From a virus: DNA of 40,327 nucleotides. Below are positions 1 to 36,279 of the stretch, in pieces. The stretch lies in IMG/VR virus record IMGVR_UViG_3300021093_000159, positions 1-40,327 of that record; one strand, 5' to 3'. A model generated the notes under the pieces. The model saw nothing but the letters and a program-made list of their open reading frames with translations, was not told the DNA's origin and ran no database searches. Numbering within the stretch: the stretch's first letter is position 1; each line of letters starts with the position of its first letter. The translations under genes were made by a program, and so were the position numbers.

Positions 1-134
1 CCTATGCTAACAAAGGATACATCATCATACACAATGGACAACAACTTGAGAAACTGTGTAGAACTGAAGGTTCTGCACGGAAATACATTCAAGCACACAA
101 AAAAGGAAAGTCAATCGGTAAACTTCCAATTTGA
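1..134 (+). CDS. 3' end of a hypothetical gene cut by the left edge
   Basis: The third forward frame is open from the left edge to a TGA at 132-134 and encodes a 43-residue tail beginning YANKGYIIIHNGQQ and ending GKSIGKLPI. It is lysine-rich and hydrophilic. This frame is preferred over the other open frame (which runs to 183) because its stop falls a few bases before the 31-nt intergenic element at 140, as the upstream genes do at the other copies of that element, and because its composition looks like protein. The start lies outside the window. I do not recognise the family and assign no function. Confidence 0.55.
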   Translation, partial: YANKGYIIIHNGQQLEKLCRTEGSARKYIQAHKKGKSIGKLPI

Positions 135-139
135 TGCAA

Positions 140-170
140 ACTGGGGGCGAGCAAAGTGTCCCTATAGTAT
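140..170 (+). promoter_or_regulatory. 31-nt intergenic element, copy 1 of 6
   Basis: Begins ACTGGGGGCGAGC, continues AAAGTGTCCC and ends TATAGTAT. It lies between the stop at 134 and the ATG at 183. TATAGT resembles a sigma70 -10 hexamer, and the same hexamer forms the -10 of the canonical promoter at 4870, but no TTGACA-like -35 lies 16-18 nt upstream. A weak stem (ACT with AGT, GGG with CCC, three-base bulge) can be drawn. Promoter or RNA element; which one is unresolved. Confidence 0.75.
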
Positions 171-182
171 AGAGACAACGTG

Positions 183-1058
183 ATGAAAAAACCACTTAAC
201 AAGCATCAAGAACATTTTGAGGATATGATTCTCACTGGAGATCTATCTGTTCTGGATTTCTTCAACTCTGATTGTGAGATTTCACTGAAGATTGATGGTT
301 CTCCTGCAATCGTTTTTGGTACTAATCCTGCCAACAATCAGTTCTTTGTTTCTACCAAATCTGCCTTCAACAAAGTTAAAATCAAACTCTGCCATTCTCA
401 TGAAGAAATTGACACGCATTTTCAAGGCAAAGTTGCAAACATTCTGCATTGTTGTTTTAATTGGTTGCCTCATACAGATTCTATCATTCAAGGCGATTTT
501 CTTGGGTTTGGTAATACTGATGTTGTTCAACCTAATACCATTTCGTATCGGTTTTCAGAAGTAGTTTCTCAAAACATTATCTTTGCTCCTCACACAGTTT
601 GGCATACTGATGGTGAATTGAAGGATGCTTATGTGATTGGATCTGCTCCTTTCTTTGCTGATACTGAAAACGTTAAGTTTGTCCAACCTTGTGTAGATTA
701 TCTCAAGATTCAACTTCCTGATGTCGATGTTAGCAACATTCAGTTTCTGACTGACAAGCAGGCACAGGTTGCCAAACAACAAATCAATGCCATTATTCGT
801 GATGGTCATGAACTCGAATGGTGGAATGTTGCTGAGATTTTTGAGTGTCGCAATCTTGCTCATTTGTATCTCACAATGATCGAACTCAAAGATGATATTA
901 TGCAGTCGATGATTGTTCATGACAGTCCTCGTGCATTTATCGGTGATGATGAGATCATTGGTGAAGGATTTGTCTGCAAGAATGATAGCATCATCTTCAA
1001 GTTGGTGAATCGTTATCAGTTTTCTCATGCAAACTTTAATTCAGTGAAATCATGGTAA
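183..1058 (+). CDS. Ligase-like nucleotidyltransferase-superfamily protein
   Basis: A 291-residue protein. Near the N-terminus it has K36-I-D-G-S-P-A-I-V-F-G, which matches nucleotidyltransferase motif I (KxDG, the lysine that is adenylylated) of DNA and RNA ligases. Near the C-terminus it has E261-G-F-V-C-K266 followed by F-K273-L, like motifs IV and V. The family is, from memory, close to the DUF6267-type phage proteins that carry KWDGAPAIFAG and QGDFL; here IIQGDFLGFG is present. The role is probably ATP-dependent polynucleotide joining or nick sealing, but activity and substrate are inferred. A GTG lies three bases before the ATG; I chose the ATG at 183 because the Shine-Dalgarno signal is weak for either. 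It sits directly downstream of the repeated element, which may control it. The last bases overlap the start of a small membrane-protein gene. Confidence 0.65.
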   Translation: MKKPLNKHQEHFEDMILTGDLSVLDFFNSDCEISLKIDGSPAIVFGTNPANNQFFVSTKSAFNKVKIKLCHSHEEIDTHFQGKVANILHCCFNWLPHTDSIIQGDFLGFGNTDVVQPNTISYRFSEVVSQNIIFAPHTVWHTDGELKDAYVIGSAPFFADTENVKFVQPCVDYLKIQLPDVDVSNIQFLTDKQAQVAKQQINAIIRDGHELEWWNVAEIFECRNLAHLYLTMIELKDDIMQSMIVHDSPRAFIGDDEIIGEGFVCKNDSIIFKLVNRYQFSHANFNSVKSW

Positions 1059-1168
1059 TCCTCTATTTCTTGATTATTCTCTCTGTTTTTTTATGGGGTG
1101 GAATTGTTCTATTCTCTCCGATATTCAATTACTTGGATGACATTCCAAAAGATCCAAAGAATCAATAA
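1052..1168 (+). CDS. Small single-span membrane protein (38 aa)
   Basis: The ATG at 1052 overlaps the end of the upstream gene by seven bases (ATGGTAA junction), which suggests translational coupling. The product starts MVILYFLIILSVFLWGG and has one strongly hydrophobic segment at residues 2-25, followed by a short polar tail ending DIPKDPKNQ, so a membrane peptide with a charged C-terminal tail is likely. Its TAA stop shares its last base with the next copy of the 31-nt element. I do not recognise a family. Small membrane proteins are common among early phage genes that alter the host envelope, but that role is only an inference here. The tight packing at both ends supports a real gene. Confidence 0.55.
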   Translation: MVILYFLIILSVFLWGGIVLFSPIFNYLDDIPKDPKNQ

Positions 1169-1198
1169 CTGGGGGCTAGCAAAGTGTCCCTATAGTAT
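1168..1198 (+). promoter_or_regulatory. 31-nt intergenic element, copy 2 of 6
   Basis: Same element as at 140 with one internal change (GGGGGCTAGC instead of GGGGGCGAGC). Its first base is the last base of the preceding TAA stop. TATAGTAT at 1191-1198 is followed 17 bases later by the ATG at 1216. If TATAGT works as a -10, transcription would begin near 1205 with a leader of about 11 nt. Confidence 0.75.
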
Positions 1199-1215
1199 AC
1201 GACTCAACCACTGAA

Positions 1216-1674
1216 ATGATTTCTCTTCCTAATCCCACATCTTTTGCTAATTTTGTTGCTGAGCAGGATGCTCGCAATACACTACAACTGAATGTAACTA
1301 AGTGGTGTTATATGTTGATTGATGCTCTCAAGCAGAACTATATTGATTATTCGATTCGTGGACATTATCGTTCTCTTCAAAAAGGTGAGAGCACTGATTA
1401 TCATGAGTCTTGTATTGTTAAACTGAAAGCAGGTGAATGTCCGATTGATTATGTCATCGAGTCTGGCAAAAAGTATCACAAAGTTGTCTTTGTTGATGGT
1501 GGTGGACAACGCTCCGCACATGCATTTGTTGATAAAAAGACTGGTGAAGTGTACATGTCCGCATCATGGAAGCAACCTGCAAAGGGTGTACGTTATGATC
1601 TGCGATTGATGAAAGATCGGGAGTATTTGTTGGCAAATGCAGATTGGTCTGGTGGATATTTGTATGCTCGTTGA
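1216..1674 (+). CDS. Conserved cyanophage hypothetical protein (152 aa)
   Basis: Soluble protein without a signal peptide or membrane segment. Recognisable stretches are KYHKVVFVDGGGQRSAHAFV, then DKKTGEVYMSASWKQPAKGVRYDL, and the C-terminal NADWSGGYLYAR. I recall closely related proteins of similar length in many marine T4-like cyanophages, always annotated as hypothetical, so family membership is confident and function unknown. It is the only gene between two control signals: the 31-nt element upstream and a canonical sigma70 promoter whose -35 overlaps its stop codon. That suggests an early gene expressed independently of the gene that follows. Codons are CGT- and CTC-rich, unlike the AGA/TTA-rich late genes. 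Confidence 0.75.
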   Translation: MISLPNPTSFANFVAEQDARNTLQLNVTKWCYMLIDALKQNYIDYSIRGHYRSLQKGESTDYHESCIVKLKAGECPIDYVIESGKKYHKVVFVDGGGQRSAHAFVDKKTGEVYMSASWKQPAKGVRYDLRLMKDREYLLANADWSGGYLYAR

Positions 1675-1699
1675 CAACCACTGGCAACACTGATAGAAT
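1671..1699 (+). promoter_or_regulatory. Sigma70-type promoter
   Basis: TTGACA at 1671-1676, a 17-nt spacer, and TAGAAT at 1694-1699: a consensus -35, ideal spacing and a five-of-six -10. The -35 overlaps the stop of the upstream gene. The expected start is near 1706, just before the leader element at 1707. It would drive the nuclease-like gene at 1774, using host RNA polymerase early in infection. Confidence 0.8.
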
Positions 1700-1706
1700 A
1701 AGACTA

Positions 1707-1738
1707 TGGGAATGAGTTTGCCCTATAAAGTTACTCAC
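1707..1738 (+). promoter_or_regulatory. 5' leader element, copy 1 of 2
   Basis: Immediately after the predicted start site the leader reads GGG (1708-1710), a loop starting AATGAG, CCC (1721-1723), TATAAAG and TTACTCAC. The same layout recurs at 5404-5438 with four paired G and C instead of three, so the short stem appears to be kept while its length differs. It may protect the mRNA 5' end or bind a protein. A GGAG at 1759-1762 precedes the ATG at 1774. Confidence 0.5.
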
Positions 1739-1773
1739 TATTCACACTCGATACTAACGGAGTTAGTTCAATT

Positions 1774-2331
1774 ATGACAATTGCAAATCTCATCGATCAC
1801 TTGGAAACGGGTGTCAACTGGAATAAAGTTTTTGGAGTTGTTCGTTCTACCTATGGTGATTCTGGATTCACCTCTAGGGCAGACAACTTTACAAAATCAA
1901 CTACAATCGAAAAAGCACTTGCTAAGTTTTCTGATCTTAACCGCGTGGATCAGATTGGTTACGATTTCATGTATGATGGTCTTAAAGTAGAACTGAAGAT
2001 GCGTCAAAATCTGTTCTACAAGAGAACACCAAATCAGACGCAAGTGATTAAGATGAAGAACTTTCAAGGTAACAAAAAGACTCTGGAAGATTTCAAGAAC
2101 GATCAAACTTTCGATGTTGCAATCATTCTGTGTCTGACTACTTTTCAAGCAATAGTTGTGGAGGATGAAGTAGCACGGAGTCGTTATTTTGCAGATGGTG
2201 ATGGTGTCTTTGCAAAGTTTGGTCTGGGAGACTACTATAAGTGCGATATTGGTGAAGTTACTCCCATTCTTCCTCCGACTTCACTTTCTGAGGAGTTTCA
2301 GACAGCAGTAGACAATTACCTTGATTTCTAA
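1774..2331 (+). CDS. Possible PD-(D/E)xK-type nuclease
   Basis: A 185-residue soluble protein. Residues 58-76 read VDQIGYDFMYDGLKVELKM, giving an aspartate (D64 or D68) followed by E73-L-K75 on what looks like adjacent beta strands, the layout of the PD-(D/E)xK nuclease core. I recall related cyanophage proteins described as restriction-endonuclease-like, but the active-site assignment is my reading of one sequence. If it is a nuclease, host DNA degradation or DNA repair are possible roles; the target is unknown. It has its own sigma70 promoter at 1671, a distinct leader element and a CGGAG Shine-Dalgarno about 11 nt before the ATG, so it appears independently and strongly expressed. Its stop is five bases before copy 3 of the 31-nt element. 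Confidence 0.5.
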   Translation: MTIANLIDHLETGVNWNKVFGVVRSTYGDSGFTSRADNFTKSTTIEKALAKFSDLNRVDQIGYDFMYDGLKVELKMRQNLFYKRTPNQTQVIKMKNFQGNKKTLEDFKNDQTFDVAIILCLTTFQAIVVEDEVARSRYFADGDGVFAKFGLGDYYKCDIGEVTPILPPTSLSEEFQTAVDNYLDF

Positions 2332-2336
2332 CTGAA

Positions 2337-2367
2337 ACTGGGGGCGAGCAAAGTGTCCCTATAGTAT
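2337..2367 (+). promoter_or_regulatory. 31-nt intergenic element, copy 3 of 6
   Basis: Identical to copy 1 over the whole element. The downstream ATG (2366-2368) starts inside the terminal TATAGTAT, and identity with copy 4 continues through the first four codons (Met-Ser-Thr-Thr). If TATAGT were a -10 with a start about seven bases on, this ATG could not be in the transcript. Confidence 0.75.
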
Positions 2368-2614
2368 GAGCACCACCCAACCGATGATTGTTTCTGAAGT
2401 CTACTCCTACCACACAAATTGGAAGGAGGGTAAAGTCAATCAAATGTGGATTGAGCAAATCACTGATAAAGAGTGTGACAATCTTTATGTTGCTGTTGCA
2501 CACAATCCCAGCAATGGTTCTACGATGAAGATGAGCAATCCCCGCACATCTTACTCCGAAACTCTCAACTGGGTTCGTGGATTCTGCGGCACCTTCTGTA
2601 TTCTTTCTGCCTGA
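2366..2614 (+). CDS. Hypothetical protein (82 aa)
   Basis: The product starts MSTTQPMIVSEVYSYHTNW and contains ITDKECDNLYVAVAHNPSNG and, near the end, YSETLNWVRGFCGTFCIL. It is soluble with no clear motif; I recall similar cyanophage hypotheticals only vaguely. The first four codons lie within the extended identity shared with the gene at 3204, so the annotated N-terminus is partly contributed by the repeated element. An alternative start is the in-frame ATG at 2384 (MIVSEVY), which would leave a short leader if the element is a promoter. There is no Shine-Dalgarno before the first ATG. The gene ends in the junction TGATTATG, which is reused at the next two boundaries. Confidence 0.6.
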   Translation: MSTTQPMIVSEVYSYHTNWKEGKVNQMWIEQITDKECDNLYVAVAHNPSNGSTMKMSNPRTSYSETLNWVRGFCGTFCILSA

Positions 2615-2616
2615 TT

Positions 2617-2652
2617 ATGCTTTACAACATTCTCAATCAACTTTCTAACTGA
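2617..2652 (+). CDS. Possible 11-codon micro-ORF between two TGATTATG junctions
   Basis: An ATG two bases after the upstream TGA opens a frame encoding MLYNILNQLSN, which ends in a TGA two bases before the next ATG. It exactly fills the space between two genes, and both of its borders have the same TGATTATG sequence. Whether the peptide matters or the frame merely carries ribosomes from one gene to the next cannot be decided from sequence. Confidence 0.2.
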   Translation: MLYNILNQLSN

Positions 2653-2654
2653 TT

Positions 2655-3059
2655 ATGGCAACTCGTTCTCGTATTGGTATTGAACTCTCCGACAATTCCA
2701 TTCTTTCTGTGTATTGTCACTGGGACGGATATCCCGAGTTTAATGGTAAGAAACTTCAAGAACATTTCGATTCTTATGAATCTGCTGCTGCACTGATTGA
2801 CGGTGGTGATATTAGTGCTCTGTGGACAAATGTAGGTTGGGATAATGAAACTCTATCAGAAGTTGGTCCTCTTTATTATTCCTCCCGTGGTGAGAATTGC
2901 CCGCCTCGGCATGATAAAGATCTGGCAGAGTATCTTCTGAATGGTGAAGAGTTTGCATACCTCTATACTCAATCTGAAGAATGGGTATGTTATGATACAT
3001 GTCAATGGCACGATTCCTATATGGAAGGTGTCGAAATCCCCTCTGCTGTTACTGTTTAA
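2655..3059 (+). CDS. Conserved phage hypothetical protein, MATRSRIGIE family (134 aa)
   Basis: Starts MATRSRIGIELSDNSILSVY followed by CHWDGYPEFNGKKLQEHF. I recognise this start (ATRSRIGI ... YCHWDGYPE) as a widespread phage protein found in many T4-like and other phages, usually annotated as hypothetical; its biochemical role is unknown to me. The protein is acidic, rich in aromatic residues and cysteine/histidine (CHWD, ENCPPRHD, YDTCQWHD), which might bind a metal, though no defined metal-site pattern is visible. There are no membrane segments. It begins two bases after a TGA in the TGATTATG junction, without a strong Shine-Dalgarno, so reinitiation from the frame upstream is plausible. 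A 29-codon membrane-peptide gene follows 12 bases after its stop. Confidence 0.75.
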   Translation: MATRSRIGIELSDNSILSVYCHWDGYPEFNGKKLQEHFDSYESAAALIDGGDISALWTNVGWDNETLSEVGPLYYSSRGENCPPRHDKDLAEYLLNGEEFAYLYTQSEEWVCYDTCQWHDSYMEGVEIPSAVTV

Positions 3060-3071
3060 TTCTGAAGATTT

Positions 3072-3161
3072 ATGGTGATTACTTCACTTATGGCAGGATT
3101 TGCCTTTGGTTATTGTATCATTGATCTTGCACTTGCATTGTACTTTAAGATTCAAAAATGA
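3072..3161 (+). CDS. Small single-span membrane peptide (29 aa)
   Basis: The product starts MVITSLMAGFAFGYCIIDLA and ends LYFKIQK. Residues 3-24 form one hydrophobic helix with a short basic C-terminal tail. It is 12 bases downstream of the previous gene and is followed by copy 4 of the 31-nt element 13 bases after its stop. It parallels the 38-aa membrane peptide at 1052, which is likewise the last gene before an element copy. No family is recognised. The short length makes the call moderate; hydrophobic composition and gene packing support it. Confidence 0.45.
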   Translation: MVITSLMAGFAFGYCIIDLALALYFKIQK

Positions 3162-3174
3162 TTCGATAACACAA

Positions 3175-3205
3175 ACTGGGGGCGAGCAAAGTGTCCCTAT
3201 AGTAT
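3175..3205 (+). promoter_or_regulatory. 31-nt intergenic element, copy 4 of 6
   Basis: Identical to copies 1 and 3. As with copy 3, the ATG of the next gene (3204-3206) overlaps the end of TATAGTAT, and identity extends through ATGAGCACCACC. Here there is no later in-frame ATG, so a simple promoter reading would leave the downstream gene without its start codon. Confidence 0.75.
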
Positions 3206-3374
3206 GAGCACCACCTTCACCGTCCGATTCGATTCCAATGCTCTGGATTCTCCCGAGTATATTGGACCTTTCTATTCTGAAGAATCTGCACAAGATTATT
3301 GCGATGCCCGCAATGATTCTTTATCACTCTCTGGGATTCCTTCCTGGGTTGCTTGTTACTCTATCGTTGACTGA
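3204..3374 (+). CDS. Hypothetical protein (56 aa)
   Basis: The product starts MSTTFTVRFDSNALDSPEYI, continues through GPFYSEESAQDYCDARND and ends WVACYSIVD. The middle (FYSEESAQDYCDARN) resembles the SPOR/DUF-like layout of short phage proteins in which a strand is followed by an amphipathic helix, but I cannot name a family. The first four residues are shared with the gene at 2366 because the repeated element runs into both coding regions. The only possible ATG start lies inside the element and no Shine-Dalgarno precedes it. The stop forms a TGATTATG junction with the next gene, suggesting coupled translation. Confidence 0.6.
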   Translation: MSTTFTVRFDSNALDSPEYIGPFYSEESAQDYCDARNDSLSLSGIPSWVACYSIVD

Positions 3375-3376
3375 TT

Positions 3377-3604
3377 ATGCAATTCCAAGTTACAGAAGTT
3401 TCGTTTGACTTTGATGACGAAGACTTCACTCTTGAAGAACAACAATCTGTCGTAGATTCTGTTCTTGGTAACACCTTTGAGGTGGAGGTTGATGATAACG
3501 ACACCGAGGAAGATGTTGCAAATGCTCTAGTCGAACACGTCACAGATTTCACTGGTTGGTGTGTCTTCTCTCTGAATTATCGTCACGTTTCTAACACTCA
3601 CTGA
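3377..3604 (+). CDS. Acidic conserved cyanophage hypothetical protein (75 aa)
   Basis: Starts MQFQVTEVSFDFDDEDFTLE and ends GWCVFSLNYRHVSNTH. It is extremely acidic in the first two thirds (DFDDEDF, EVDDNDTEED), with a predicted strand-helix-strand-helix layout and no membrane segment. I recall near-identical layouts among cyanophage hypothetical proteins. A small acidic protein of this kind could mimic DNA or bind a basic partner, but nothing specific supports that. It follows the previous gene by two bases (TGATTATG) and precedes the next by nine bases, so it is most likely cotranscribed with both. Confidence 0.65.
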   Translation: MQFQVTEVSFDFDDEDFTLEEQQSVVDSVLGNTFEVEVDDNDTEEDVANALVEHVTDFTGWCVFSLNYRHVSNTH

Positions 3605-3613
3605 ATAAACAAA

Positions 3614-3826
3614 ATGACTCTGAACAAAGCACAATTCGACCAACTCGTTGAAAACTATGTTTGTCACATTATCGATGGGTTGGATTCAGAAACTATGGAA
3701 ACTATGATCTTTGATCTACTCACTCGTGAGTATGAAGATATATCTGAAGAAGACATTCTGAATGAGATTGAAGAACTTTATGGAGAGGAAGTTGCAAATG
3801 ATCTTCTGGAAAGTGCAGCACAATGA
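3614..3826 (+). CDS. Acidic helical hypothetical protein (70 aa)
   Basis: Starts MTLNKAQFDQLVENYVCHII and is largely alpha-helical by inspection, with repeated acidic patches (LTREYEDISEEDILNEIEEL). No membrane segment or catalytic motif is visible. It lies nine bases after the preceding acidic gene and is followed by a 59-aa gene, forming a run of three small coupled genes. I do not recognise a named family, although small acidic helical proteins at this position are usual among cyanophage early genes. Confidence 0.6.
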   Translation: MTLNKAQFDQLVENYVCHIIDGLDSETMETMIFDLLTREYEDISEEDILNEIEELYGEEVANDLLESAAQ

Positions 3827-3850
3827 TTGAAACTCAGTACTGAAACTACA

Positions 3851-4030
3851 ATGACAAATCCCAATCCTTACGTCCAAAATCTTGTTGAAATGGGTTATGA
3901 TGAAGCAGATTGCCGAATGATAGCATCTGCTGGACTTAAAAAGACTTTTCCTCTTAACATTCATGGTCGAGTTTATAGCACTCAACAAGAGTATGATGAT
4001 GCTATTGCTGACTTTCTGAATGGTTTTTAA
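3851..4030 (+). CDS. Hypothetical protein (59 aa)
   Basis: The product starts MTNPNPYVQNLVEMGYDEAD and ends YDDAIADFLNGF. The frame is open back to a TTG at 3827, directly after the preceding stop, but the ATG at 3851 gives a natural N-terminus and a normal 24-base gap, so it is preferred. The first half (NPYVQNLVEMGYDEADCRMI) looks like a UBA-like three-helix segment of the type 'LVEMGYDEAxxxxA'; this is suggestive only. The second half contains NIHGRVYSTQQEYDDAIADF, typical of short phage hypotheticals. Function unknown. Confidence 0.6.
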   Translation: MTNPNPYVQNLVEMGYDEADCRMIASAGLKKTFPLNIHGRVYSTQQEYDDAIADFLNGF

Positions 4031-4114
4031 ATGGTAAAGTTTTATCTCTCTTGTGGTTCATTGCTTAAAATCAATGATTACTCTTACTTCAATCAATCTA
4101 CTGGGGGCGAGTAA
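4031..4114 (+). CDS. Doubtful 27-codon ORF ending inside element copy 5
   Basis: An ATG directly after the preceding TAA opens a frame (MVKFYLSCGSLLKINDYSYF and seven more residues) that stops within the 31-nt element at 4112-4114. The other genes upstream of the element end at or before its first bases, so this frame is either a chance ORF or the remnant of a small gene. Little supports it beyond the start-stop contact. Confidence 0.2.
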   Translation: MVKFYLSCGSLLKINDYSYFNQSTGGE

Positions 4115-4130
4115 AGTGTCCCTATAGTGT
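4100..4130 (+). promoter_or_regulatory. 31-nt intergenic element, copy 5 of 6
   Basis: Two changes from the consensus: GAGTAAAG instead of GAGCAAAG (shared with copy 6) and TATAGTGT instead of TATAGTAT (unique). The ATG of the downstream gene is 18 bases further on at 4149, compatible with a very short leader. Confidence 0.72.
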
Positions 4131-4148
4131 AACCACAACCCTTCTACT

Positions 4149-4469
4149 ATGCGAGTCATCGAAAAGCAAATGAATGATGCAATCCTGAATCAAAAGGATT
4201 GGAAAAAAGACAATACTGAGGTTGTTTATTATAGTGGAAATGATTCCTCTGATGTGTTTCTCTATGGCAATCTGATTGCTCGTATTCATTCTTTCTCGAT
4301 TGAATTGTTTGATGGTGGGTATCAATCAGCAACCACAAAGTCCCGTCTCAATGCTATTCTCTCCGAGCATGGTTTGCCTGGTGAGAAAGTCTTCCAGAAG
4401 AACTTTCAGTGGTTTGTGCAACAAGAAGGTGGTGCAATTCCTTTCTTTGATGGTATGCGTCTCAACTGA
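4149..4469 (+). CDS. Conserved cyanophage hypothetical protein (106 aa)
   Basis: Starts MRVIEKQMNDAILNQKDWKK and contains NTEVVYYSGNDSSDVFLYGN, LIARIHSFSIELFDGGYQS and the C-terminal TTKSRLNAILSEHGLPGEKV followed by FQKNFQWFV and DGMRLN. I recognise this family from cyanophages, where the order of conserved blocks (MRVIExQM, TxVxY, VYLxGxxIA, TTKSRLNAIL, GMRLN) is the same; all are annotated as hypothetical. It is soluble. The function is unknown, but its wide conservation points to a core early role. It is placed after copy 5 of the repeated element and is the last sizeable gene before a non-coding region. Confidence 0.78.
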   Translation: MRVIEKQMNDAILNQKDWKKDNTEVVYYSGNDSSDVFLYGNLIARIHSFSIELFDGGYQSATTKSRLNAILSEHGLPGEKVFQKNFQWFVQQEGGAIPFFDGMRLN

Positions 4470-4481
4470 TTCTTGATTCTG

Positions 4482-4541
4482 ATGTCTTTCTTCATTAAGG
4501 ATGCAAGAGAGTATGCAAAGTACCGATTATCGATTGATTGA
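4482..4541 (+). CDS. Possible 19-aa micro-ORF
   Basis: The frame encodes MSFFIKDAREYAKYRLSID, a basic amphipathic peptide, 12 bases after the previous stop. The sequence looks protein-like and its codons match its neighbours, but the length gives no statistical support and no Shine-Dalgarno is evident. It could be the remnant of a longer gene that lost its 5' part. Confidence 0.25.
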   Translation: MSFFIKDAREYAKYRLSID

Positions 4542-4650
4542 GTATAATGTAGAGTCCTCATCTTTGGGGTCTTTTTTATGCTTTTTATTCAAAATAAGGT
4601 TAAAAATGTATTAAAATCAATTATAAATGTGTTTTTTAATGTATATTCGT

Positions 4651-4682
4651 TTTCAACATGCTTGTGGAAAAGTATGTTGAAA
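4651..4682. repeat. 11-bp inverted repeat with 10-nt loop
   Basis: TTTCAACATGC at 4651-4661 pairs with GTATGTTGAAA at 4672-4682 across the loop TTGTGGAAAA, with one G-T wobble. The loop holds one of two TGTGGAAAA boxes; the other begins two bases after the right arm. There is no T-tract after it, so it is not a terminator. Confidence 0.75.
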
Positions 4683-4692
4683 CTGTGGAAAA
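4663..4692 (-). promoter_or_regulatory. Two DnaA-box-like sequences, possible replication origin
   Basis: TGTGGAAAA occurs at 4663-4671 and 4684-4692, exactly 21 bp apart (two helical turns). Its reverse complement TTTTCCACA is the DnaA-box form I recall from cyanobacterial chromosome origins and differs by one base from the E. coli box TTATCCACA. The boxes sit beside an inverted repeat and an AT-rich stretch. Two boxes alone are weak evidence for DnaA binding. Confidence 0.4.
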
Positions 4693-4849
4693 CTTATGTT
4701 TAATGTCTCTGAGACCTTGTGATTAGACTCTTATGAATGTCAGATCTTATGGTGATCTAAGCCTGCACTCTATCACAACCGCAGAGAAATGTCAAGACCC
4801 CCGAGTATCATAAAACCCCCACACAACTCCCAGAATTATAAGGACATCG

Positions 4850-4857
4850 AATAAATA
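4850..4857 (+). promoter_or_regulatory. Possible late-promoter octamer AATAAATA
   Basis: Matches the T4-type late octamer TATAAATA at seven of eight positions and is the same variant seen before gp25 at 8064. It lies 68 bases before the ATG at 4926 and just upstream of a canonical sigma70 promoter, so this gene could be expressed early and late. The octamer is short and the DNA AT-rich, so chance occurrence is possible. Confidence 0.35.
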
Positions 4858-4869
4858 CTCTGAAACCCA

Positions 4870-4898
4870 TTGACAAACACCTCAGAGAGTCTTATAGT
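4870..4898 (+). promoter_or_regulatory. Sigma70-type promoter
   Basis: TTGACA at 4870-4875, a 17-nt spacer and TATAGT at 4893-4898. The sequence after the -10 (ATGAT, then CATCAA) resembles that after copy 6 of the 31-nt element, which supports reading TATAGT as a -10 in both. The expected start near 4905 excludes the in-frame ATG at 4899 as a start codon and fixes the gene start at 4926. Confidence 0.82.
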
Positions 4899-4925
4899 AT
4901 GATTATACATCAACGGAGATCACTT

Positions 4926-5099
4926 ATGTCGGTTGCGTATTCACAAGGGCACAAGACACATTATAGGGTTACTCTGGATTTTGAGGTATTTGATGACTTC
5001 GATCCTCATCAATTGGACTGGGAAAAGACATTCAACCTGGAACCTGCTGAGAAAGTGTCAGCATACGTGGAGGACCTGGATTGTCCTTCGAGGTGGTAG
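4926..5099 (+). CDS. Hypothetical protein (57 aa)
   Basis: The product starts MSVAYSQGHKTHYRVTLDFE and is acidic, with VFDDFDPHQLDWEKTFNLEP in the middle and ending VEDLDCPSRW. The frame is open from an ATG at 4899, but that codon overlaps the -10 of the promoter at 4870. The ATG at 4926 has an ACGGAG Shine-Dalgarno eight bases upstream and was chosen for both reasons. I recall short cyanophage proteins with LDFEV..DFxPxxLDW and EPxExVxAYVEDL, all without known function. It is likely an abundant early product given the strong promoter and ribosome site. An inverted repeat follows its stop immediately. Confidence 0.68.
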   Translation: MSVAYSQGHKTHYRVTLDFEVFDDFDPHQLDWEKTFNLEPAEKVSAYVEDLDCPSRW

Positions 5100-5100
5100 T

Positions 5101-5122
5101 TTTGGTATTTAATTATACCAAA
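5101..5122. terminator. AT-rich hairpin directly after the stop codon
   Basis: TTTGGTAT (5101-5108) and ATACCAAA (5115-5122) form a perfect 8-bp stem with a TTAATT loop, one base after the TAG stop at 5099. GGGG and TTTTTATTTTG follow at a distance of several bases, so it is not a textbook terminator. It may protect the mRNA 3' end or be an operator. Confidence 0.45.
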
Positions 5123-5134
5123 TCAGGGGTTTTT

Positions 5135-5183
5135 ATTTTGTTAACATAAAGCATATATATTTGGGTCTTTATGTTAACAAAAT
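5135..5183. repeat. Perfect 17-bp inverted repeat covering a start codon
   Basis: The left arm ATTTTGTTAACATAAAG (5135-5151) and the right arm CTTTATGTTAACAAAAT (5167-5183) are exact reverse complements around a 15-nt loop (CATATATATTTGGGT). Each arm contains the palindrome GTTAAC. The ATG of the next gene is at 5182-5184, so its first two bases are in the stem. It could hide the start codon in mRNA or serve as a two-site operator. No T-tract follows, so a terminator is unlikely. Confidence 0.85.
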
Positions 5184-5358
5184 GAGAACACTAAAATATA
5201 GTCATCTGGGAGAGATGAGAATTCTCAGAGTTGCAAACAAAGTCACCACTATTCTACCACAACTGCAAGACGTAATGCAACAGTTAGAGGAGAACGGTGA
5301 GGATAGTTGTGAGGTGATTCTGCAGGTCTTAAGTGACATTCAAGAAAAGGTGAGTTAA
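5182..5358 (+). CDS. Hypothetical protein with start codon in a hairpin (58 aa)
   Basis: The product starts MRTLKYSHLGEMRILRVANK and is predicted to be mainly helical, with an acidic second half (MQQLEENGEDSCEVILQVLS) and the end DIQEKVS. The frame is open upstream to a TTG at 5161, but that would put the start in the loop of the inverted repeat; the ATG at 5182 is preferred. No Shine-Dalgarno is accessible, because the preceding bases are all part of the right arm. The arrangement suggests translation depends on melting of the stem, or that the repeat binds a regulator, possibly this protein itself (inference). No family recognised. Copy 6 of the repeated element follows four bases after its stop. 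Confidence 0.6.
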   Translation: MRTLKYSHLGEMRILRVANKVTTILPQLQDVMQQLEENGEDSCEVILQVLSDIQEKVS

Positions 5359-5362
5359 TGAC

Positions 5363-5393
5363 ACTGGGGGCGAGTAAAGTGTCCCTATAGTAT
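5363..5393 (+). promoter_or_regulatory. 31-nt intergenic element, copy 6 of 6
   Basis: Carries the GAGTAAAG variant shared with copy 5, with TATAGTAT at 5386-5393. The ATG overlapping its end opens only six codons (MIIKGE). The next gene starts 77 bases further on at 5470, after the leader element at 5404. This copy has the layout best compatible with a promoter: a -10-like hexamer, a start near 5398, then a leader. Confidence 0.75.
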
Positions 5394-5403: not shown

Positions 5404-5438
5404 GGGGAATGAGATGCGCCCCCTACAAAGACACTCAC
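5404..5438 (+). promoter_or_regulatory. 5' leader element, copy 2 of 2
   Basis: GGGG (5404-5407), a loop starting AATGAG, CCCC(C) (5419-5423), TACAAAG and ACACTCAC. It matches the leader at 1707-1738 in order and spacing while the stem is one pair longer. In both places it begins a few bases after the predicted transcription start, though the promoters differ (canonical at 1671, 31-nt element here). Confidence 0.5.
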
Positions 5439-5469
5439 ACACACAGTTCATTACACTTTTCTTTTCATT

Positions 5470-5601
5470 ATGTCCAAGTCCGTTCTTCTTTCGATGCTCG
5501 ATCAAGGTAACACTGGCGCCGAGATTCTTTCGATTCTTGATGCTATCATTGACGACAGTCAGAGTGATAATGTTCCGACTCTTGATGTAATCGAATTCTG
5601 A
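5470..5601 (+). CDS. Conserved small cyanophage protein (43 aa)
   Basis: The product starts MSKSVLLSMLDQGNTGAEIL and ends NVPTLDVIEF. I recognise the pattern 'LLxxLxQGNTGxEILxILDxI' from many cyanophage genomes, where it is an unannotated small protein of about 45 residues, so the gene is probably real despite its length. It should form two helices around a GNTG turn. Function unknown. A leader of about 70 nt with a conserved hairpin element precedes it; the start context is CATTATG without a clear Shine-Dalgarno. A G/C-rich inverted repeat and a new promoter follow ten bases after its stop. Confidence 0.7.
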   Translation: MSKSVLLSMLDQGNTGAEILSILDAIIDDSQSDNVPTLDVIEF

Positions 5602-5920: not shown

Positions 5921-6112
5921 ATGGAAAAGGTATATCACATCTATGCAAAGAACAAGTGTATCTTACATTCAATTAAAGAAGAAGACTTTGAAGTTGCTTG
6001 GAATACTTTGAAGAAGATGATTGATATTGTGAAGACAGAGTATCATATTGAAGATCTTTCCTTTGAAGAACTTTATATTAATAAGGATATTACTTTAAGT
6101 TCTTCTCATTGA
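5921..6112 (+). CDS. Conserved cyanophage hypothetical protein, YHIYAKNKC family (63 aa)
   Basis: The product starts MEKVYHIYAKNKCILHSIKE and contains EEDFEVAWNTLKKMIDIVKT then EYHIEDLSFEELYINKDI, ending LSSSH. I recognise this family from T4-like cyanophages: the YHIYAKNxC start, a helix with EEF..xW..L and the terminal NSS(H/Y). It is always annotated as hypothetical. The frame opens at a TTG at 5915, but the ATG at 5921 is preferred. The ribosome site is poor (GGAAATATT well upstream), and the right arm of the structured leader ends nine bases before the ATG. Its TGA stop lies within the -35 of the next promoter. Confidence 0.75.
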   Translation: MEKVYHIYAKNKCILHSIKEEDFEVAWNTLKKMIDIVKTEYHIEDLSFEELYINKDITLSSSH

Positions 6113-6137
6113 CATACTCTAAATAAACTGATAAAAT
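6109..6137 (+). promoter_or_regulatory. Sigma70-type promoter overlapping a late octamer
   Basis: TTGACA at 6109-6114, a 17-nt spacer and TAAAAT at 6132-6137. The spacer contains TCTAAATA (6118-6125), the late-type octamer found also at 5780 and 36284. Both would drive the glycosyltransferase gene at 6161, early from the sigma70 sites and late from the octamer. Confidence 0.75.
6118..6125 (+). promoter_or_regulatory. Possible late promoter TCTAAATA
   Basis: Located inside the sigma70 spacer, 35 bases before the ATG at 6161, a distance in line with the other late octamers of this window. Confidence 0.45.
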
Positions 6138-10408: not shown

Positions 10409-13400
10409 ATGACCGAAAAAAGAGTTAAAATTAGTTCAATCGTACAAAATCAACTTCCTGAATTTGTGCAAGCAAGTTTTCCTCTTGCAGAAAACTTTTT
10501 AAATCAATATTATAAATCTACAGAATATCAAAGTGCTTCGGTAGATATTCTTAATAATATTGATCAATATATAAAAATTGATAATATTATTAACACTGTA
10601 AAATTTACAACTCTTTCTTCTGACGTTTCATTTTTTGATGCAACAATTTCTGTAGATTCTACTGCAGGATTTCCACCAGAATATGGTTTAATTCAAATTG
10701 ATTCTGAAATTATTACTTACACAGGGATTACTTCAACTAGCTTTACTGGATGTGTAAGAGGGTTTAGTGGAGTTACAACATATACTCAAGCAACAAAAAC
10801 TGACGAATTAGTATTTGTTCAATCAGAATCATCTGATCACGAATCTGGATCTTCAGTAGTAAACCTGAGTATTCTACTGTTTCAAGAGTTCTATACAAAA
10901 GTTAAAAAGCAAATTGCTCCAGGATTTGAGGGTAGGTCTTTTTACGATGGAATTAATGATAGATTGCTGATCAAACAACTTAAAGATTTTTATACATCCA
11001 AAGGAACTGACTCTTCTTTTAAAGTTCTTTTCAACGCTTTGTATGGAAAACCAGTTGAAATAATAAAACCAAGAGATTATTTAATACAACCATCAGATGC
11101 TCAGTATAGAATTACTCAAAATCTGGTTGTAGAAGCATTAGAAGGAAATCCTTTAGACTTAGTAAATACAACATTATATCAGGATGAGGTTTACTCATTT
11201 CCACAAGCTCAAGGAACAATTGCTCTTGTAGAAAAATTTACAAGAGGTAGTAAAGATTATTATACTATTGGACTTGATTTTGACTATAATAAAGATTTAA
11301 CCGTTAGAGGAACAGTTTTAGGAAAATTTAGCATTCATCCAACCACAAAAACTACAAGACTTGTTTCTATTGGTGCAACAGTATTGGATGTAGACTCTAC
11401 AGTAGGATTTCCAAATTCTGGGTCATTGATTGCAGAACTTGATAATGGAACATCTTTAACTATTAACTACGGATCAAAAACTTTAACTCAATTTTTTGAA
11501 TGTTCTGGAATTACTCAAGAGGTCACTAAAAATCAAAATCTTAGATTAGATGTTCATGCTTATGGATATGTTGGCGTAAGTACTTCAGAAAAAGTAAAAG
11601 TTAGAGTTACTGGAGTTTTATCAGATTTTAAAATTTTAGATGATGAGTATTATTATCAAAAAAATGATTCGATTCAAATCAAAACTTTAGGAAATAATTT
11701 TACTGATTATAGAGCAAATAATTGGTTTTTTAACGTTCCTGTAGTTTATGATGTAAGGTCTATTGATTTAATTGATAACTCAGACTTTACATATAGATTC
11801 AATACCTACGATGAACATAATTTTGTAATAGGTGATATTGTAACTATTGTAGCATCTAATGGTTCAATTAAAAATTCATTTACAGTTTCTATTGAAAGTA
11901 AAAATTCAATAACTCTTAGAGGTCAAGGACAGTTAACTCAGTCATTATCATACACTGTCGAAAAAAATGTTTCTAAAGTAAATTCATCAAATTACTCAAA
12001 TTTAAACATTTATTCTTCTAATGTTCAAAATACTTATGAAGACTCAGATGGGTCTGTGTATGTAACTTCTTCTTCATTGCCAACGTATTTAAATCAACCT
12101 CTTAGAATTAATGATAGATCAGTAGTTTTTTCTGGTGAGTTTACAGGAACTGAATTACAGATTGGTAAACATGGATTTTATACTGGAGATGAAGTTGTAT
12201 ATTCTTATAATGGCAATAGTGAATTATATTTTGTAGAAAAAGTAAATGATACTACTATAAAGTTAGCAAAAAGTAGAGCTAACATATTTACTCAAAATTA
12301 TGTTGGATTTAATACTTCCGCAACAAATGCCAAGATAGAATTTTCTCAGTTTACTTTTTCAGATTTAACTACTCAATTATTAGAACCACAAAAGTTAATT
12401 AGAAAAATATCTGATCCTCAGGATAATTACGAAGAGGTTACAACATCTCCAGGATTAACGGGTATTTTTATAAATGGAGTAGAACTCTCAAACTATAAAA
12501 CAAACGATTTCGTATATTACGGAGAAATACAAAATATTATTTCAATTTCTCCCGGAAAAGGATATGATGTAATTAATCCTCCAGTTCTTACCGTAACAGA
12601 TGATGTTGGTTTTGGTGCAGGGGGTCATTGTTCAGTTGTAGGTAATCTGAAGAGAATAGAAATTATTGATCCTGGATTTGATTACTTAGAAATTCCAACA
12701 GTAACTATTACTGGAGGAAATGGGTCTGGTGCTATAGCAAGAGCAAACTTAATAGACTCTCAACATATAGTATCTTTTAATTCAAATTCTGGTGCTGGTG
12801 CCGTAGATATAGTAAGCAACACAATTGGATTTTCAACATATCATAAGTTCAGAGATTATGAAGAAGTAATTTATGATACTAATGGATCTCAAGCTATTTC
12901 CGGAATAACTACTGGATCGGTGTATTATGTTTCTGTAATTGATGCCTTTACAGTTAAGTTGCATGAAAATATTTCAGATTCAATTGCAGGAATTAATACA
13001 ATTTCATTAAATGATTATGGAATTGGTAATCATACTCTAAGATCTACTTCTCTTAAGAAGAAAATATCTTCAATTGTTATTTCAAATAGTGGTCAAAATT
13101 ATGAAAACAAAAAGATCACTTGCAGTCCTGTTGGAATTAATACTGCAAAGGATACAATCAATATCAAAAATCATGGATATGAAACTGGAGAACTAATTAA
13201 ATATTCTTCAGGTTTAACTTCTGTAGGTGGATTAACCGATGGTTTAGAATATTATGTAACTAAAGTTAGTGAAGATGAATTTTCATTATCGCAAATTGGA
13301 GTAGGAACCGACCTTAATAATTTTTATTTAAATACTAAACAATATGTCAATTTAACTTCAACTGGTTCTGGAGTTCACACATTTAATTGTCCAGAAATTT

Positions 13401-16400
13401 TAGTTTCGGTTGCAGGGAAAATTGGAATATCAACTCTTGCAGGACAAGATTTTAATGCAATAGTTCAACCAATTTTTAGAGGAATCATTGAGTCTGTACA
13501 CGTTTCTGCTGGAGGAACAGATTATGGATCAGAAAATATCATAAACTACAACAGACAACCAGATTTTACTCTTAATTCCGGTTCGTTAGCTCAAGTAACT
13601 CCAATTATATCAAATGGTAAAATTGTAGAAATTGTTGTGAACAATTTTGGTTCTGGATATAACTCTCCACCAGATCTAATTGTTACTGGAAGTGGTGTTG
13701 GTGCAGTTTTAACTCCAATTATATCAAATGGTCAATTAGTTGAAGTTAAAGTAATATTTGGTGGATCTGGTTATTCATCAAGTACCTTCATAGAAGTTAG
13801 ATCTGCTGGTCAGGGAGCAAAGTTCGAATCTTCAATTAAATCTTGGAACATTAACCTCGTTGATAGACTAATATCAACATCAAATATTGTTTCTGATGAT
13901 GGCGTAATTAATAGTGGGTTGAATGATAATTTCGGACTTGAATATACTCATTGCTATTCTCCAAGAAAACTTAGGTCTTCTGTTTTATCGACAGTTATTC
14001 AAAATGGAATTAGAAGATACGTTCCAGATCTTCAATTGCAAAATGGTAGAGAATTAAATTCAAATTCTCACTCTCCAATTATAGGATGGGCATATGATGG
14101 AAATCCAATTTATGGTCCGTATGGATATTCCAATCCTTTTGGTGGAACTATAAAACCTCTTTCATCTGGATATGTTCTTAATATTAAATCCAATAGACCA
14201 AGCATATCATTATATCCTGAAGGATTTTTTGTTGAGGATTATACTTATGCTGGGCAAGGAGATCTTGATCAGAGTAACGGAAGATTTTGCTTAACTCCAG
14301 AGTATCCAAATGGAACCTACGCATATTTTTGTACAGTTGATCCAAATCTTATAGAATCTGATGGACCATTTGAAAATTATAAAAAACCAATTTTCCCCTA
14401 TGTAATTGGAGATAAATTTAAATCCAAACCGATTGAATTTAACTTTAAAAAATCATCAAACCAAGATGAGTTTGACTTAAATCAAACTGGTTGGATTAGA
14501 AATACAACACCATATAACTTAACTAAAGAAAGAAGTTATTATCAATATTTGTTACAACCAAATAAAATTTTAAATCAAGAATCTTTTGTTCAATTTACCG
14601 AACCAGGAAAAATTGAAGGTATTAATGTTATTTTTGGAGGAAGTGGATATAAAGTAGGTGAAAAAGTTTTATTTGATTTGGAAAATACTGAAGGTAGAGC
14701 AGTATCAGCAAAAGTATCATCAATTAAAGGAAAAGTAGTTAATAATATAAGTGTTGCTTCCTCAACGGTATCAAACATTGAATTTTATCCAATTGATGGA
14801 GCAGGGAATCACATTGGATTTGCAACTTCTCCTCATGAATTTTCAAATAATGACTTAGTAACTATAACAACTTTATATGAGTTTAAAAAATTAGATAATA
14901 TTTCAACATCAGAAAATGTTTTGTCGTTATCAACGGCAGTTGAACCAACTGTAACAACTGGTTTAACAACTTACTTTAACGTAAACGGTTCATTAAATTT
15001 CCCAAATATTAGAGAAAATGATGTTTACTTAATTGGAGATGAACAAGTTAAAATTCTCAAAGTAGACAATTCTTCTTCTAGAATTTGGGTTCTTAGAAAT
15101 CAAAATGGAACCTCCGGAATTTCGACACAATCTGTTGGAGTTGCTATTACTGAAAAAACAAGAAAATTTGTATGCAACTTTGGTATTTCTTCTACCTCAT
15201 ATAATTACAATTATAATAAAGAAATATATTTTACTCCAGCAGAATCTCTTGGAATTGGAACAACTGCAGGTGTTGGTATTGGATCAACTCTATCATTCTC
15301 AAATCCTGGAGTTGGAATTAGTCACATTAATATTCCAACCAGAAGCATATATTTACCAAATCATAAATTGCAAACTGGTTTAGAACTAGTTTATTCATCT
15401 AATGGACTTACTCCTATATCAATTTCAACCAATGGTGTAAGTTCTTTTACACTGGAAGATAACTCTATCGTTTATACTGCAAAAATTTCAGAAGACTTAA
15501 TTGGCATTTCTACTGTTAGAGTCGGTCTTGGAACAACTGGAGTTTTTGTTGGTATTGGAACTTCAGTCTCTGGTGAATTATTATATTTTACTGGAATTGG
15601 GACAGGAACATATCACAGTTTTACTACAGTATATCCAAATATTGTTACGGGACAAATTAGTAAAAATGTTGTTACAGTTTCTACAGCATCTACAAGTAAT
15701 TTGATTGTTGACGATAAAGTTTCAATTAATGTAAAATCTGGTCTTTCTACTACAGTTGTGGTTAAGTATGATGACTATAATAGAAGAATGGTCATTAATC
15801 CAAAATCCTTTATTTCTTCAGATGTAAATCTTTCAGATAATACTATAACAATCAATAATCATGGATATTTTAATGGACAAAAAATAATCTATACTGCTTC
15901 ATCAGTAATTGGTGGATTGCAAAATGAAGGAATTTATTTTGTAGTATATGTGGATGATAATAAATTCAAACTTGCAGAAACCTATTATGCCTCAACAAAG
16001 AAAATACCAGATGTTGTAAACTTTACTTCATCAAACTCAGGAACAATATCAGAAATCAATCCTCCATTGAGTCTTATTAGAAATGAATCTGTGATTTTTG
16101 ATGTATCAGATTCTTCATTGTCATTTACTAAAGGTTCCATACAATATCCTGCGTTTATATTAAATTTTTATAAACAATCCGAATTTATTGACATTTTTGA
16201 TTCATCACAAACATCTTCTTCATTTGAGGTTATAAGAACTGGAGTTCCGGGAATTGATTCCAATGCTTCAGTAGCTTTATTCTTGAATGATAACGTTCCT
16301 CAGACTTTATTCTATAAGTTAGATCCAATAGATCCTCAAAATAATGTAGATATTAAAACAAGTATAATCGTTGATGTTGAACAAAAAAACAACAATCAAC

Positions 16401-19400
16401 TGATTATTAGATCGAGTCTTTACAATGGAACATATTCAATAGTTTCATCTTCTTCAACATCGTTCAAATACATTCTTTCAGATATTCCTGAACGTTTTGA
16501 ATATTTCAACGATCTTTCAACGTTAGAGTATTCAACAACATCAACTAATACTACAGGTGAAATCAAAAGTATTACACTCAATTCTAAAGGATATGGATTT
16601 AACAGACTTCCTTTAATTAATGGTGTTGATACTGTTTCTGGTTCTGGAGCACTTTTAGAACCATTCAGCAAGTCTGTAGGATCCGTCAAAAAGGTTAACA
16701 TACAGGATATTGGATTCGACTATTCTTCAGATTTAACTTTAAAACCATCAGTTCAACTGCCAACTATTCTAAAAATTGAAGCATTATCTTCCTTTGAGTC
16801 TATTGGAGTTTCATCTGTTGGAAAAAATTACTCAATTGCCCCAGATCTTGTTGTAATAGACTCTATTACCAATAAGAGAATATTTGATATTGACCTTAAA
16901 TACACTTTAGGAAATTATCAAGTAACAATTTTTAAAAATACTTATGGAATAAGTGACTCAACACCATCAATAGTTCCAATTAATAATTCAAATGGAATTG
17001 ATATTGGTTCTATTGTATTTGACCCCGGAAATAGTAACGTAATTGTAACTCTTGGTGCAAGTTTTAGTGATGCGTCTTCCTTCCCATTCAATGTTGGTGA
17101 TGAGGTATTAATTGAAAATGTAAGTGTTGGTGTCGGAACAACTGCATTAGGTTATAACTCTGAAAACTATGATTACTCTTTATTTACAATTACTAATGTT
17201 ACCTCAAACATTGGTGGAATTGGTGCTACAGTAACTTATAATTTAAGCAATTATTTAGAAAATGGGGAAGTCCCCGGAAACTTTAATCCAACACTATCTG
17301 CAGGAAAAATAACTCCCAAAAAATATTTTCCAATCTTTAATGTTACACTTAAGAAAAATGATTTCTTAATTGGAGAACCAGTTCATAGTGGCAGTACACT
17401 TGGTAAAGTAGTTTCTTGGCAGTCTGAGACAAACTACCTCAAAGTCTCTTCTTTTGGTGAATATAAGGTCAATTCTTTGATTCGAGGTGAAACGTCAAAT
17501 TCACAAGGAATAATTTCCGAAGTTTTAACTTTCGATTCAGTTTATAATATTGATGCATTTTCTACTGTCATTAATGGGTGGGAAAGAGAAACTGGATTTT
17601 TAAATAATGATCTGCAAAGAATACATGATAACAATTATTACCAATACTTCTCATATTCATTGAAATCTCAAGTCCCTATTGAAGATTGGGACGAAACTGT
17701 AAGTAGTTTAAATCATACTTCAGGATTTAAAAAGTTTTCAGATCTTGTAATAGAATCAATAGACTTAACTAATGTTGGAATAGCAACAAGTCAAAATTCC
17801 GGAACAGTCGATCCAATAGCAGATTTATCTTCTGTAATTGATACAAACTGCGTCTTTGATTTTGATCTTGTTAGTGAAGGAACTATAAACATTGATAGTA
17901 CTATAAAATCAAATGAAATAATATTCAATTCAAAAATTCTTCAAGATTACATCGAATCAGTTGGAAACAGAGTTCTCGTTATTGATGATATTAGTGGTCA
18001 ATTTAGTAGTGATCCAAGACCAGATAATTTTTCAATAGTAGATACTTTTAGTCTAGGAAAAACCTCGAAAAAATATATTATCTTTGTTCAAGACAAACGT
18101 TTCATAACACAAAGACAAATAAACTTAGTATCTTTAGTTCAAGATGGAACATTTGGTTTCATCAATCAATATGGTGGAACAAATACTTTCTATGATATGG
18201 GATATTTTGATTTCCTTATCATTGGAACAGAGGCTAATTTACTATTCTATCCAACAAAAAATCAAATTAATAACTTTGATATTAGCACTTTATCATATAG
18301 TTTGGAGGACACTTTCTCCGGAATTGGAACATTATCTGTAGGTGATATTGCCTTAATTCAATCAAATACGGCAACTATTCCTATTGGAGTATCTACTGCC
18401 ACACCAATAGTTTCTATTGCATCAACTTATAGTTCTTCTAAGATCGTACTTCAAATTTCCTCTGCTAATAACATTTATTATGAATTTAATGAAATTACAG
18501 TTCTTTATGATGGAACAAATGTAAGTTTCATTGATTATGGATCAATGACTACAGATTTGCTAAATCCAGAGTCATCTACAGGAATTGGAACTTATAATGC
18601 TTATATCTCTGGTTCCAATATTATTGTTGATATAACTCCAAATGTTGCAACTGCAACTTCATACAGAGTAAATACTGTTCAAATTTCTATTGCAGATACT
18701 GCTACAGGGATTTCAACTTCAATATTGAACAATTCCAGAATAACATCATCATACGCATCAATTTCATCTTCACCTACTCCAACTTCACAACTTATTGCAG
18801 AATATCCAGGTGATTATGAGAGTGGATATTTCATCGTAAACGTTCATGATACTACTAATAATACCTATCAAGTTTCGGAAGTTTTAGTTGTAGATGATGA
18901 TACCAATGCATATATTACAGAATTTGCATCTATAGAAAGTGTAGATTCTCTTGGAATAATTACTGCAGGTGTATCTGGACAAAACACGAATTTATATTTT
19001 ACACCAATTGAAAATATTGATGTTCAAGTTAGAGTTTTCCAAAACTCTCTTGGATTAGTTGATCAAGATATTATTTCAAATAATACTATAGATTTAGATA
19101 ATGCATCAATTGATAGTGGATTTGGTGAATATTTTGGTGCTCAAATTGATGTTGTTAGAGAGTTTCAATTATATCATAAGCAATTACCAATTTTCCAAAG
19201 ACCATTCGTTGGAAATGATTCAACAATTGTTGACGTTAATAATGATACTGTTAAAATTCCCGGACATTATTTTGTAACTGGTGAGGAGGTATCATATTCT
19301 TTTGCTGGTGCAGGAACAACCCAATCTATTGGTATTGCCACAACCTCCGTCACAGGTTTTGGTGTAACAGATAAACTTCCATCAACAGTCTATATTATTA

Positions 19401-35958: not shown

Positions 35959-36279
35959 ATGAATGTAATACTTACAAACTCAAATAGTTATATTGTAAAA
36001 GTCAATCCAAATAATCCCTCAAATTTTAAAGCAAGTCAAGGAGAAACAACAGTGGCCAACCAATTTGCAGATTTAGCAGACGTTGATGTGAGTGGGGTTT
36101 CGGATAAGTATGTTTTAATGTATGATTCAACAACTCAAAAATACAAAATGGTAAATCCAGATGATGTTCTTTCTGCTTCAGTTACTGAACCAGTTTCACC
36201 AGGAATACCTGAAGATTTTATTGATGAATTAGATGAAGATCTTAATGATCGTATCAATCTTGATGCTGGTAACTTTTAA
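35959..36279 (+). CDS. Conserved cyanophage fibre-associated protein (106 aa)
   Basis: Starts MNVILTNSNSYIVKVNPNNP and has the block QFADLADVDVSGVSDKYVLM followed by YDSTTQKYKMVNPDDVLSA, which I know from cyanophage fibre loci, where it is also found as a domain inside larger fibre proteins. The C-terminal third is acidic (DFIDELDEDLNDRINLDAGNF). Its last residues, DAGNF, resemble the DAGTF end of the fibre protein encoded next, which may mark a shared assembly or attachment contact. Function as a virion part is inferred from context. Confidence 0.65.
   Translation: MNVILTNSNSYIVKVNPNNPSNFKASQGETTVANQFADLADVDVSGVSDKYVLMYDSTTQKYKMVNPDDVLSASVTEPVSPGIPEDFIDELDEDLNDRINLDAGNF

Follow-up and report, generated by a model that had tools for sequence, protein, structure and literature searches.

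A repeated upstream element of T4-like cyanophages as a candidate activator-dependent promoter whose lineage-specific box covaries with the C-terminal domain of a phage protein family

The 40,327-nucleotide (nt) virus record IMGVR_UViG_3300021093_000159, analyzed here at its full length as the window, carries six copies of a 31-nt element starting at positions 140, 1168, 2337, 3175, 4100, and 5363, all on the plus strand and exactly where a first-pass annotation of the letters had placed them. No match beyond these six was found when the window was scanned with up to 3 mismatches, and 100 shuffles yielded a chance expectation of 0. As that annotation had also stated, the copies vary at just three sites (box position 10, G/T; position 13, C/T; position 30, A/G) and lie at gene junctions. 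The genes in question are small and codirectional and are located upstream of gp25-gp6; the structural region has no copy. The phage is a T4-like cyanophage, as indicated by its DUF6267, DUF7717, and Kyano_Gp96 genes, and its nearest annotated records are all cyanophages, mostly Kyanoviridae. In this work we describe the element, its relatives in other phages, and the SSM2_065 protein family, a candidate for its activator.

Copy 1 (140 to 170) consists of the box ACTGGGGGCGAGC (140 to 152), the spacer AAAGTGTCCC (153 to 162), and the overlapping hexamers TATAGT (163 to 168) and TAGTAT (165 to 170), and precedes the DUF6267 gene, whose ATG is at 183. Copy 2 (1168 to 1198), with the box ACTGGGGGCTAGC, lies upstream of the open reading frame (ORF) at 1216 to 1674 (DUF7717, phrog_818). 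The remaining copies precede the ORFs at 2366/2384 to 2614 (copy 3, 2337 to 2367), 3204 to 3374 (copy 4, 3175 to 3205; phrog_28075), 4149 to 4469 (copy 5, 4100 to 4130; Kyano_Gp96), and 5414 to 5590 (copy 6, 5363 to 5393). For its part, the box of copy 5 ends in GAGT (TATAGTGT).

Conservation in relatives, on which a promoter role had partly been staked beforehand, was found, since the core recurs both in IMG/VR and in several cultured Kyanoviridae. The element proved to be made of two modules, a downstream core (AAAGTGTCCC-TATAGTRT) shared across phages and an upstream box specific to each genome. A scan of IMG/VR for the core AAAGYGTCCCTATAGTRT rendered at least 120 stretches. S-SM2 and SynMITS9220M01 contain 12 related copies each, with the same downstream core as the window and the upstream boxes AGGGGGGTCG and TTACTCACCTC, respectively, the window type being ACTGGGGGCGAG. 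Boxes differed by 1.26 per 12 nt within a locus versus 6.24 between loci; the controls gave 6.15 when copies were randomly reassigned and 7.40 for the flank directly upstream of the box. The loci comprised 52 distinct 11-nt boxes. P-TIM68 has 13 copies, and its box GTTAGTTACCTC, also known before the standard core, is followed there by the core AAATTGACATATTAATGT; box and core can thus separate. The repeated elements of S-SSM7, Bellamy, DSL-LC02, and S-SRM01 are of other kinds, and Syn9 showed none in the part scanned. S-SSM7 (L138) has its own repeated upstream element in the same region, CTGCCCTATAATRAGTACATAACAAACA, as do Bellamy (L139) and DSL-LC02 (L136), with TGTATTATTAAAGAGTCAAAGG.

For the promoter anatomy, 764 sites were aligned on each locus's own box instead of on the core. 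An AAA stood exactly 13 nt after the box start in 740 of them, and in the 373 sites lacking TATAGT the core bases T13, A14, T16, R17, and T18 remained conserved, so that TAGTRT, which is shifted by 2 nt downstream relative to TATAGT, probably represents the -10-like hexamer. In the register of the 740-site alignment, the TAGTAT of copy 1 is likewise the better conserved of its two hexamers. The first-pass annotation had taken TATAGT as the -10; its overlap with the -10-like hexamer stands, and the register is refined to TAGTRT. The distance from box end to TAGTRT in the 740-site consensus is 12 bp (AAAGTGTCCCTA). An ATG-initiated ORF of at least 30 codons began within 120 nt downstream of 702 of the 740 sites, compared with 242 in the reverse direction. 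In the full genomes of S-SM2, SynMITS9220M01, S-B05, and P-TIM68, box plus AAA was nearly confined to the accessory early region and oriented with the genes.

Ordinary promoters lie in the same region of the window. A scan for TTGACA confirmed the canonical plus-strand promoter that had been read at 4870 (4870 to 4898, TTGACA-17-TATAGT), which represents a contrasting class, and sites with a spacing of 17 to 18 nt were also found at 1671 (1671 to 1699, plus strand, TTGACA-17-TAGAAT), 5621, and 6109 (6109 to 6137, plus strand, TTGACA-17-TAAAAT). The same type of scan, with the -35 placed 16 to 18 nt upstream of the -10, detected none of the six element copies. The earlier proposal that the 5' part takes the place of a -35 is borne out: none of the six copies has a -35 hexamer, and the box lies at the spacing of a MotA box.

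The candidate activator belongs to the SSM2_065 family, previously uncharacterized proteins of about 190 amino acids. A comparison of complete genomes placed the family in all four box phages included (S-SM2, SynMITS9220M01, P-TIM68, and S-B05) and found it absent from Syn9, Bellamy, S-SSM7, and DSL-LC02, even though Bellamy is otherwise close to S-SM2; a profile search detected no member in S-SRM01 or S-SCSM1. In a tblastn search of 50,697 phage records, matches were restricted to box phages, eight of them distinct: S-SM2, SynMITS9220M01, P-TIM68, S-B05, RN05-S, RB11-B, and the single-cell viruses AG-345-O18 and AG-345-E15. In AG-345-E15 the protein was matched first and two elements with the box ACTGAAGCGTCT were detected afterwards; the C terminus of this protein is similar to those of the proteins of ACTGAAGCC phages. 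No relative was found in bacterial genomes, Pfam and PHROGs gave no consistent family, and a sequence search of PDB returned none. A further candidate regulator, the product of SynMITS9220M01 36003 to 36287 (present also in S-B05 and P-TIM68), was rejected: it lies in a tail-fiber cluster, belongs to phrog_6228 of unknown function, and is absent from S-SM2.

The gene for the window-type protein lies outside the window, on contig L002 (11220 to 11780, 187 amino acids), which has the same box. The window opens with the 3' end of a uvsW-type helicase gene (1 to 130, plus strand), the 5' end of which closes L002; the first 127 nt of the window and the last 127 nt of L002 are both 100% identical to a single uvsW gene in L335, which places L002 directly upstream of the window. 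Assemblies break at uvsW at 127 nt. L335, L336, L337, and L338 share the uvsW 3' end of the window (127 to 130 nt, 99 to 100%) and lack its box and protein, so uvsW is common to box and non-box phages. The window also contains a giant ORF at 10409 to 22378 (3,989 amino acids, in a gp7-like baseplate position), with another nearby at 23960 to 31510 (2,516 amino acids).

As to its own control, the SSM2_065-family gene is preceded in P-TIM68 and S-B05 by sigma70-type promoters with a perfect TTGACA. Of the metagenomic contigs, 36 extend far enough upstream of the gene, and 33 of these have a box element there, typically at a distance of 430 to 490 nt. A copy of the element also follows the stop codon of the gene within about 20 nt.

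There was a clear covariation between box and protein. Across metagenomic contigs, protein and box distances covaried most strongly for the SSM2_065 family among the 18 families compared (z = 11.5, by label permutation), and the 17 other early-region gene families, with z values of at most 5.1, were discarded as box partners. When the protein was split by region, the covariation resided in the C-terminal ∼60 amino acids (Mantel r = 0.611, z = 18.6), the middle giving an r of 0.150 and the N-terminal part an r of 0.024 (z = 0.7). Hitchhiking of the C terminus with the element that directly follows the gene was ruled out, since boxes read only from copies more than 1 kb away rendered an r of 0.590 for the C terminus and 0.040 for the N terminus.

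A blind set was then assembled from contigs fetched by the protein profile alone, 63 of which were new to the analysis. Box elements were present in 61 of these; in L318 none occurred within the available part of the contig. L314 carried the exact GTTAGTTACCTCTAAATTGACA element of P-TIM68, the phage of its protein relative, as its C terminus had suggested, which brings the total to 62 of 63. The blind set on its own gave an r of 0.682 for the C terminus and 0.094 for the N terminus, and the nearest neighbor in the first set predicted the box with no more than about 2 of its 13 bases wrong in 29 of 45 cases by the C-terminal region and in 18 of 45 by the N-terminal one. Mutual information (L002 numbering) tied K139, R142, K143, and Y146 to box positions 6 to 10, and L158, K163, L169, K170, and R181 mainly to positions 2 to 4. 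The half-sites assort: ACTT and GTTA are each joined to GGATCGTC (L073 and L076, respectively), in proteins with common first-helix features and different tails, and the GTTA tail module was found again in GTTAGTAACC phages.

In the AlphaFold models the N-terminal part was disordered and the C-terminal domain was modeled confidently, at a predicted local distance difference test score (pLDDT) of about 90; the domain contains helices at 139 to 161 and 175 to 186. At the N terminus, M1, F4, and F7 are invariant and K2, T3, and E10 nearly so; the motif MKTFQEFxxE(A) matches the MKTYQEFIAEA of T4 ipII/ipIII and includes the ten-residue capsid targeting pattern. ORFs with such an N terminus numbered 0 to 3 per cyanophage genome scanned. 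This T4-like capsid-targeting N terminus suggests that the protein may be packaged and injected.

Taken together, the most probable explanation is, in our judgment, that the copies are activator-dependent promoters, at which a protein of the SSM2_065 family turns on accessory early/middle operons with a specificity swapped between lineages. The model put forward in the first-pass annotation, a promoter of the middle type that has its own activator box, agrees with the orientation, the downstream ATG ORFs, the spacing of the -10-like hexamer, and the covarying phage protein. The repeat, its modularity, spacing, and orientation, its co-occurrence with the protein, the domain-specific covariation, and the blind confirmation are established computationally. 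Host RNA polymerase would read each copy, its sigma factor recognizing the -10-like TAGTRT that overlaps TATAGT, while the box, 13 nt that span roughly -37 to -25, would stand in for the -35 hexamer. For box binding the protein would use its folded C-terminal domain, and it would recruit polymerase to small accessory early/middle operons, helix 1 (K139, R142, K143, and Y146) reading the downstream half of the box and the tail module (L158 to R181) its upstream half. Box and C-terminal domain would be swapped jointly between lineages, giving each its own promoter specificity with a common core. With the gene behind sigma70-type promoters, as in P-TIM68 and S-B05, or behind a box promoter, as in many others, an early-to-middle cascade, often with feedback, would result. 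Binding, activation in place of repression, and timing are the parts of the model that we infer. More tentatively, and with somewhat less than even confidence, we suggest a packaged and injected sequence-specific activator with a modular two-part domain swapped along with the boxes, by which the promoter sets of coinfecting T4-like cyanophages would be orthogonal, each excluding the other, as early as the first minutes of infection.

Several observations weigh against activator-dependent promoters. S-B43 has seven box copies, and an SSM2_065 gene was not detected in it; its deposit lacks the counterpart of S-B05 153.8 to 156.85 kb (about 3 kb, the site of the gene) and is rearranged there. Throughout its early region, that deposit (MN018232; L247 and L325 to L334) shows heavy rearrangement when compared with S-B05, possibly through misassembly. 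In copy 3 the first in-frame ATG (2366) falls inside the -10, and in copy 4 so does the sole near in-frame ATG (3204), with no later one nearby, so that RNA from a promoter at copy 4 would miss the start of the gene. In many relatives another in-frame ATG follows 5 to 6 codons later, whereas copy 4 lacks one. Structure searches of PDB and BFVD with both models gave nothing credible, and for the C-terminal domain they yielded no relative; the fold therefore lends no support to DNA binding, and it is the covariation only that points to a DNA contact. The label permutation behind the z values ignores phylogeny, the N terminus of the same gene serving as the control for ancestry and linkage. Finally, the mosaic contigs L045, L072, and L113 carry two box types each, which may be orphan promoters left after gene exchange or may reflect two activators.

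The box could instead be an operator at which the covarying protein represses or autoregulates. Repressors too bind the -35 region that the box overlaps, and one element within about 20 nt past the stop codon and another commonly ∼430 to 490 nt upstream are what autoregulated loci present. However, a repressed promoter would need a -35 element, and at the six copies there is none, the box replacing it at MotA-box spacing, while ordinary TTGACA promoters without a box occur in the same region; we thus regard repression as unlikely. Less likely still is a recombination or gene-cassette border, a hot spot for the shuffling of accessory genes whose promoter-like features would be incidental. T4-type phages reportedly shuffle genes by means of early-promoter stem-loop cassettes, the copies do flank small accessory genes at junctions, and the two box types of the mosaic contigs would fit such a border. 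On the other hand, all copies are oriented with the genes, and the distance between their box and -10-like hexamer is fixed. The covariation of the protein domain with the box extends over the whole genome and includes copies located over 1 kb from the gene, and shuffling alone does not require a lineage-specific box.

Two further explanations appear highly improbable. In T7-type promoters (T7/T3/SP6) the recognition part varies and the CTATAG-like core is constant, and the constant CCCTATAGTR core with its lineage-specific upstream part resembles that pattern, as expected of promoters for a phage single-subunit RNA polymerase; but a PF00940 search of five cultured box phages, run with no positive control, gave no match, and the constant part extends over 18 nt, its degeneration following that of a -10 (TAnTRT). 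A signal that acts in the RNA, as a hairpin or in processing or translation control, within transcripts from promoters further upstream would account for the ATG that overlaps the element in some copies and for the pairing of GGGGGC with GUGUCCC that a window copy allows as RNA (-9.7 kcal/mol). Folding in four lineages was nevertheless no better than that of shuffles (z of -0.59 to 0.04), the window hairpin is not shared by box types like GTTACTCACCTC, and no Rfam family matched.

Cyanomyoviruses lack motA and asiA, and their early/middle control has been described as unclear (PMC2984593, PMC5780444). What is new here is a concrete candidate promoter together with a protein family that has no Pfam, PHROG, or PDB relative and a predicted residue-to-base code, available as dozens of directly testable natural box/protein pairs. 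If activator-dependent promoters are the right explanation, these would be natural orthogonal promoter/activator pairs in abundant marine phages.

A close known parallel is the T4 middle promoter, whose MotA box lies 12 ± 1 bp upstream of the -10 (PMC2988021). In both systems the -35 element gives way to a phage box, with 12 bp between it and the -10 or -10-like hexamer downstream, and a dedicated phage activator is proposed here too, its gene lying behind a sigma70-type promoter in P-TIM68 and S-B05. However, the cyanophage box, at 13 nt, exceeds the MotA box in length and varies from lineage to lineage together with the C-terminal domain of its candidate activator, and the element has an additional conserved AAAGTGTCCC spacer. 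Profiles for MotA (PF09114) and AsiA (PF09010) matched nothing in S-SM2, SynMITS9220M01, S-B05, S-B43, or P-TIM68 (T4 controls, 3e-63 and 2e-43, respectively), and by inspection none of the 52 distinct 11-nt boxes resembled the MotA box, (a/t)(a/t)(a/t)TGCTTtA. Since MotA, AsiA, and the MotA box are all absent, the element would resemble a MotA-type middle promoter in its working but is not a member of that system. A middle-class motif has been proposed in cyanomyoviruses before, a putative middle promoter of Syn9 and P-SSM4 being cited in part of the literature (in PMC2984593); Syn9 has neither the element core nor an SSM2_065-family protein. The early region of box phages further contains TTGACA-17-TATAAT-like promoters, like the sigma70-like early promoters of cyanomyoviruses, from which the box elements differ by the lack of a -35 hexamer and the dedicated box; nor are they TATAAATA late promoters of the gp55-dependent kind. 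T4 packages and injects Alt (PMC2988021), and with Alt and the T4 internal proteins the SSM2_065 family shares a capsid targeting sequence and a Lys/Arg-rich composition, differing from them in that its C-terminal domain is folded and shows covariation with a promoter box. If the activator model is right, promoter specificity would diverge inside one phage family, as it does with T7-like polymerases, but by way of a small activator.

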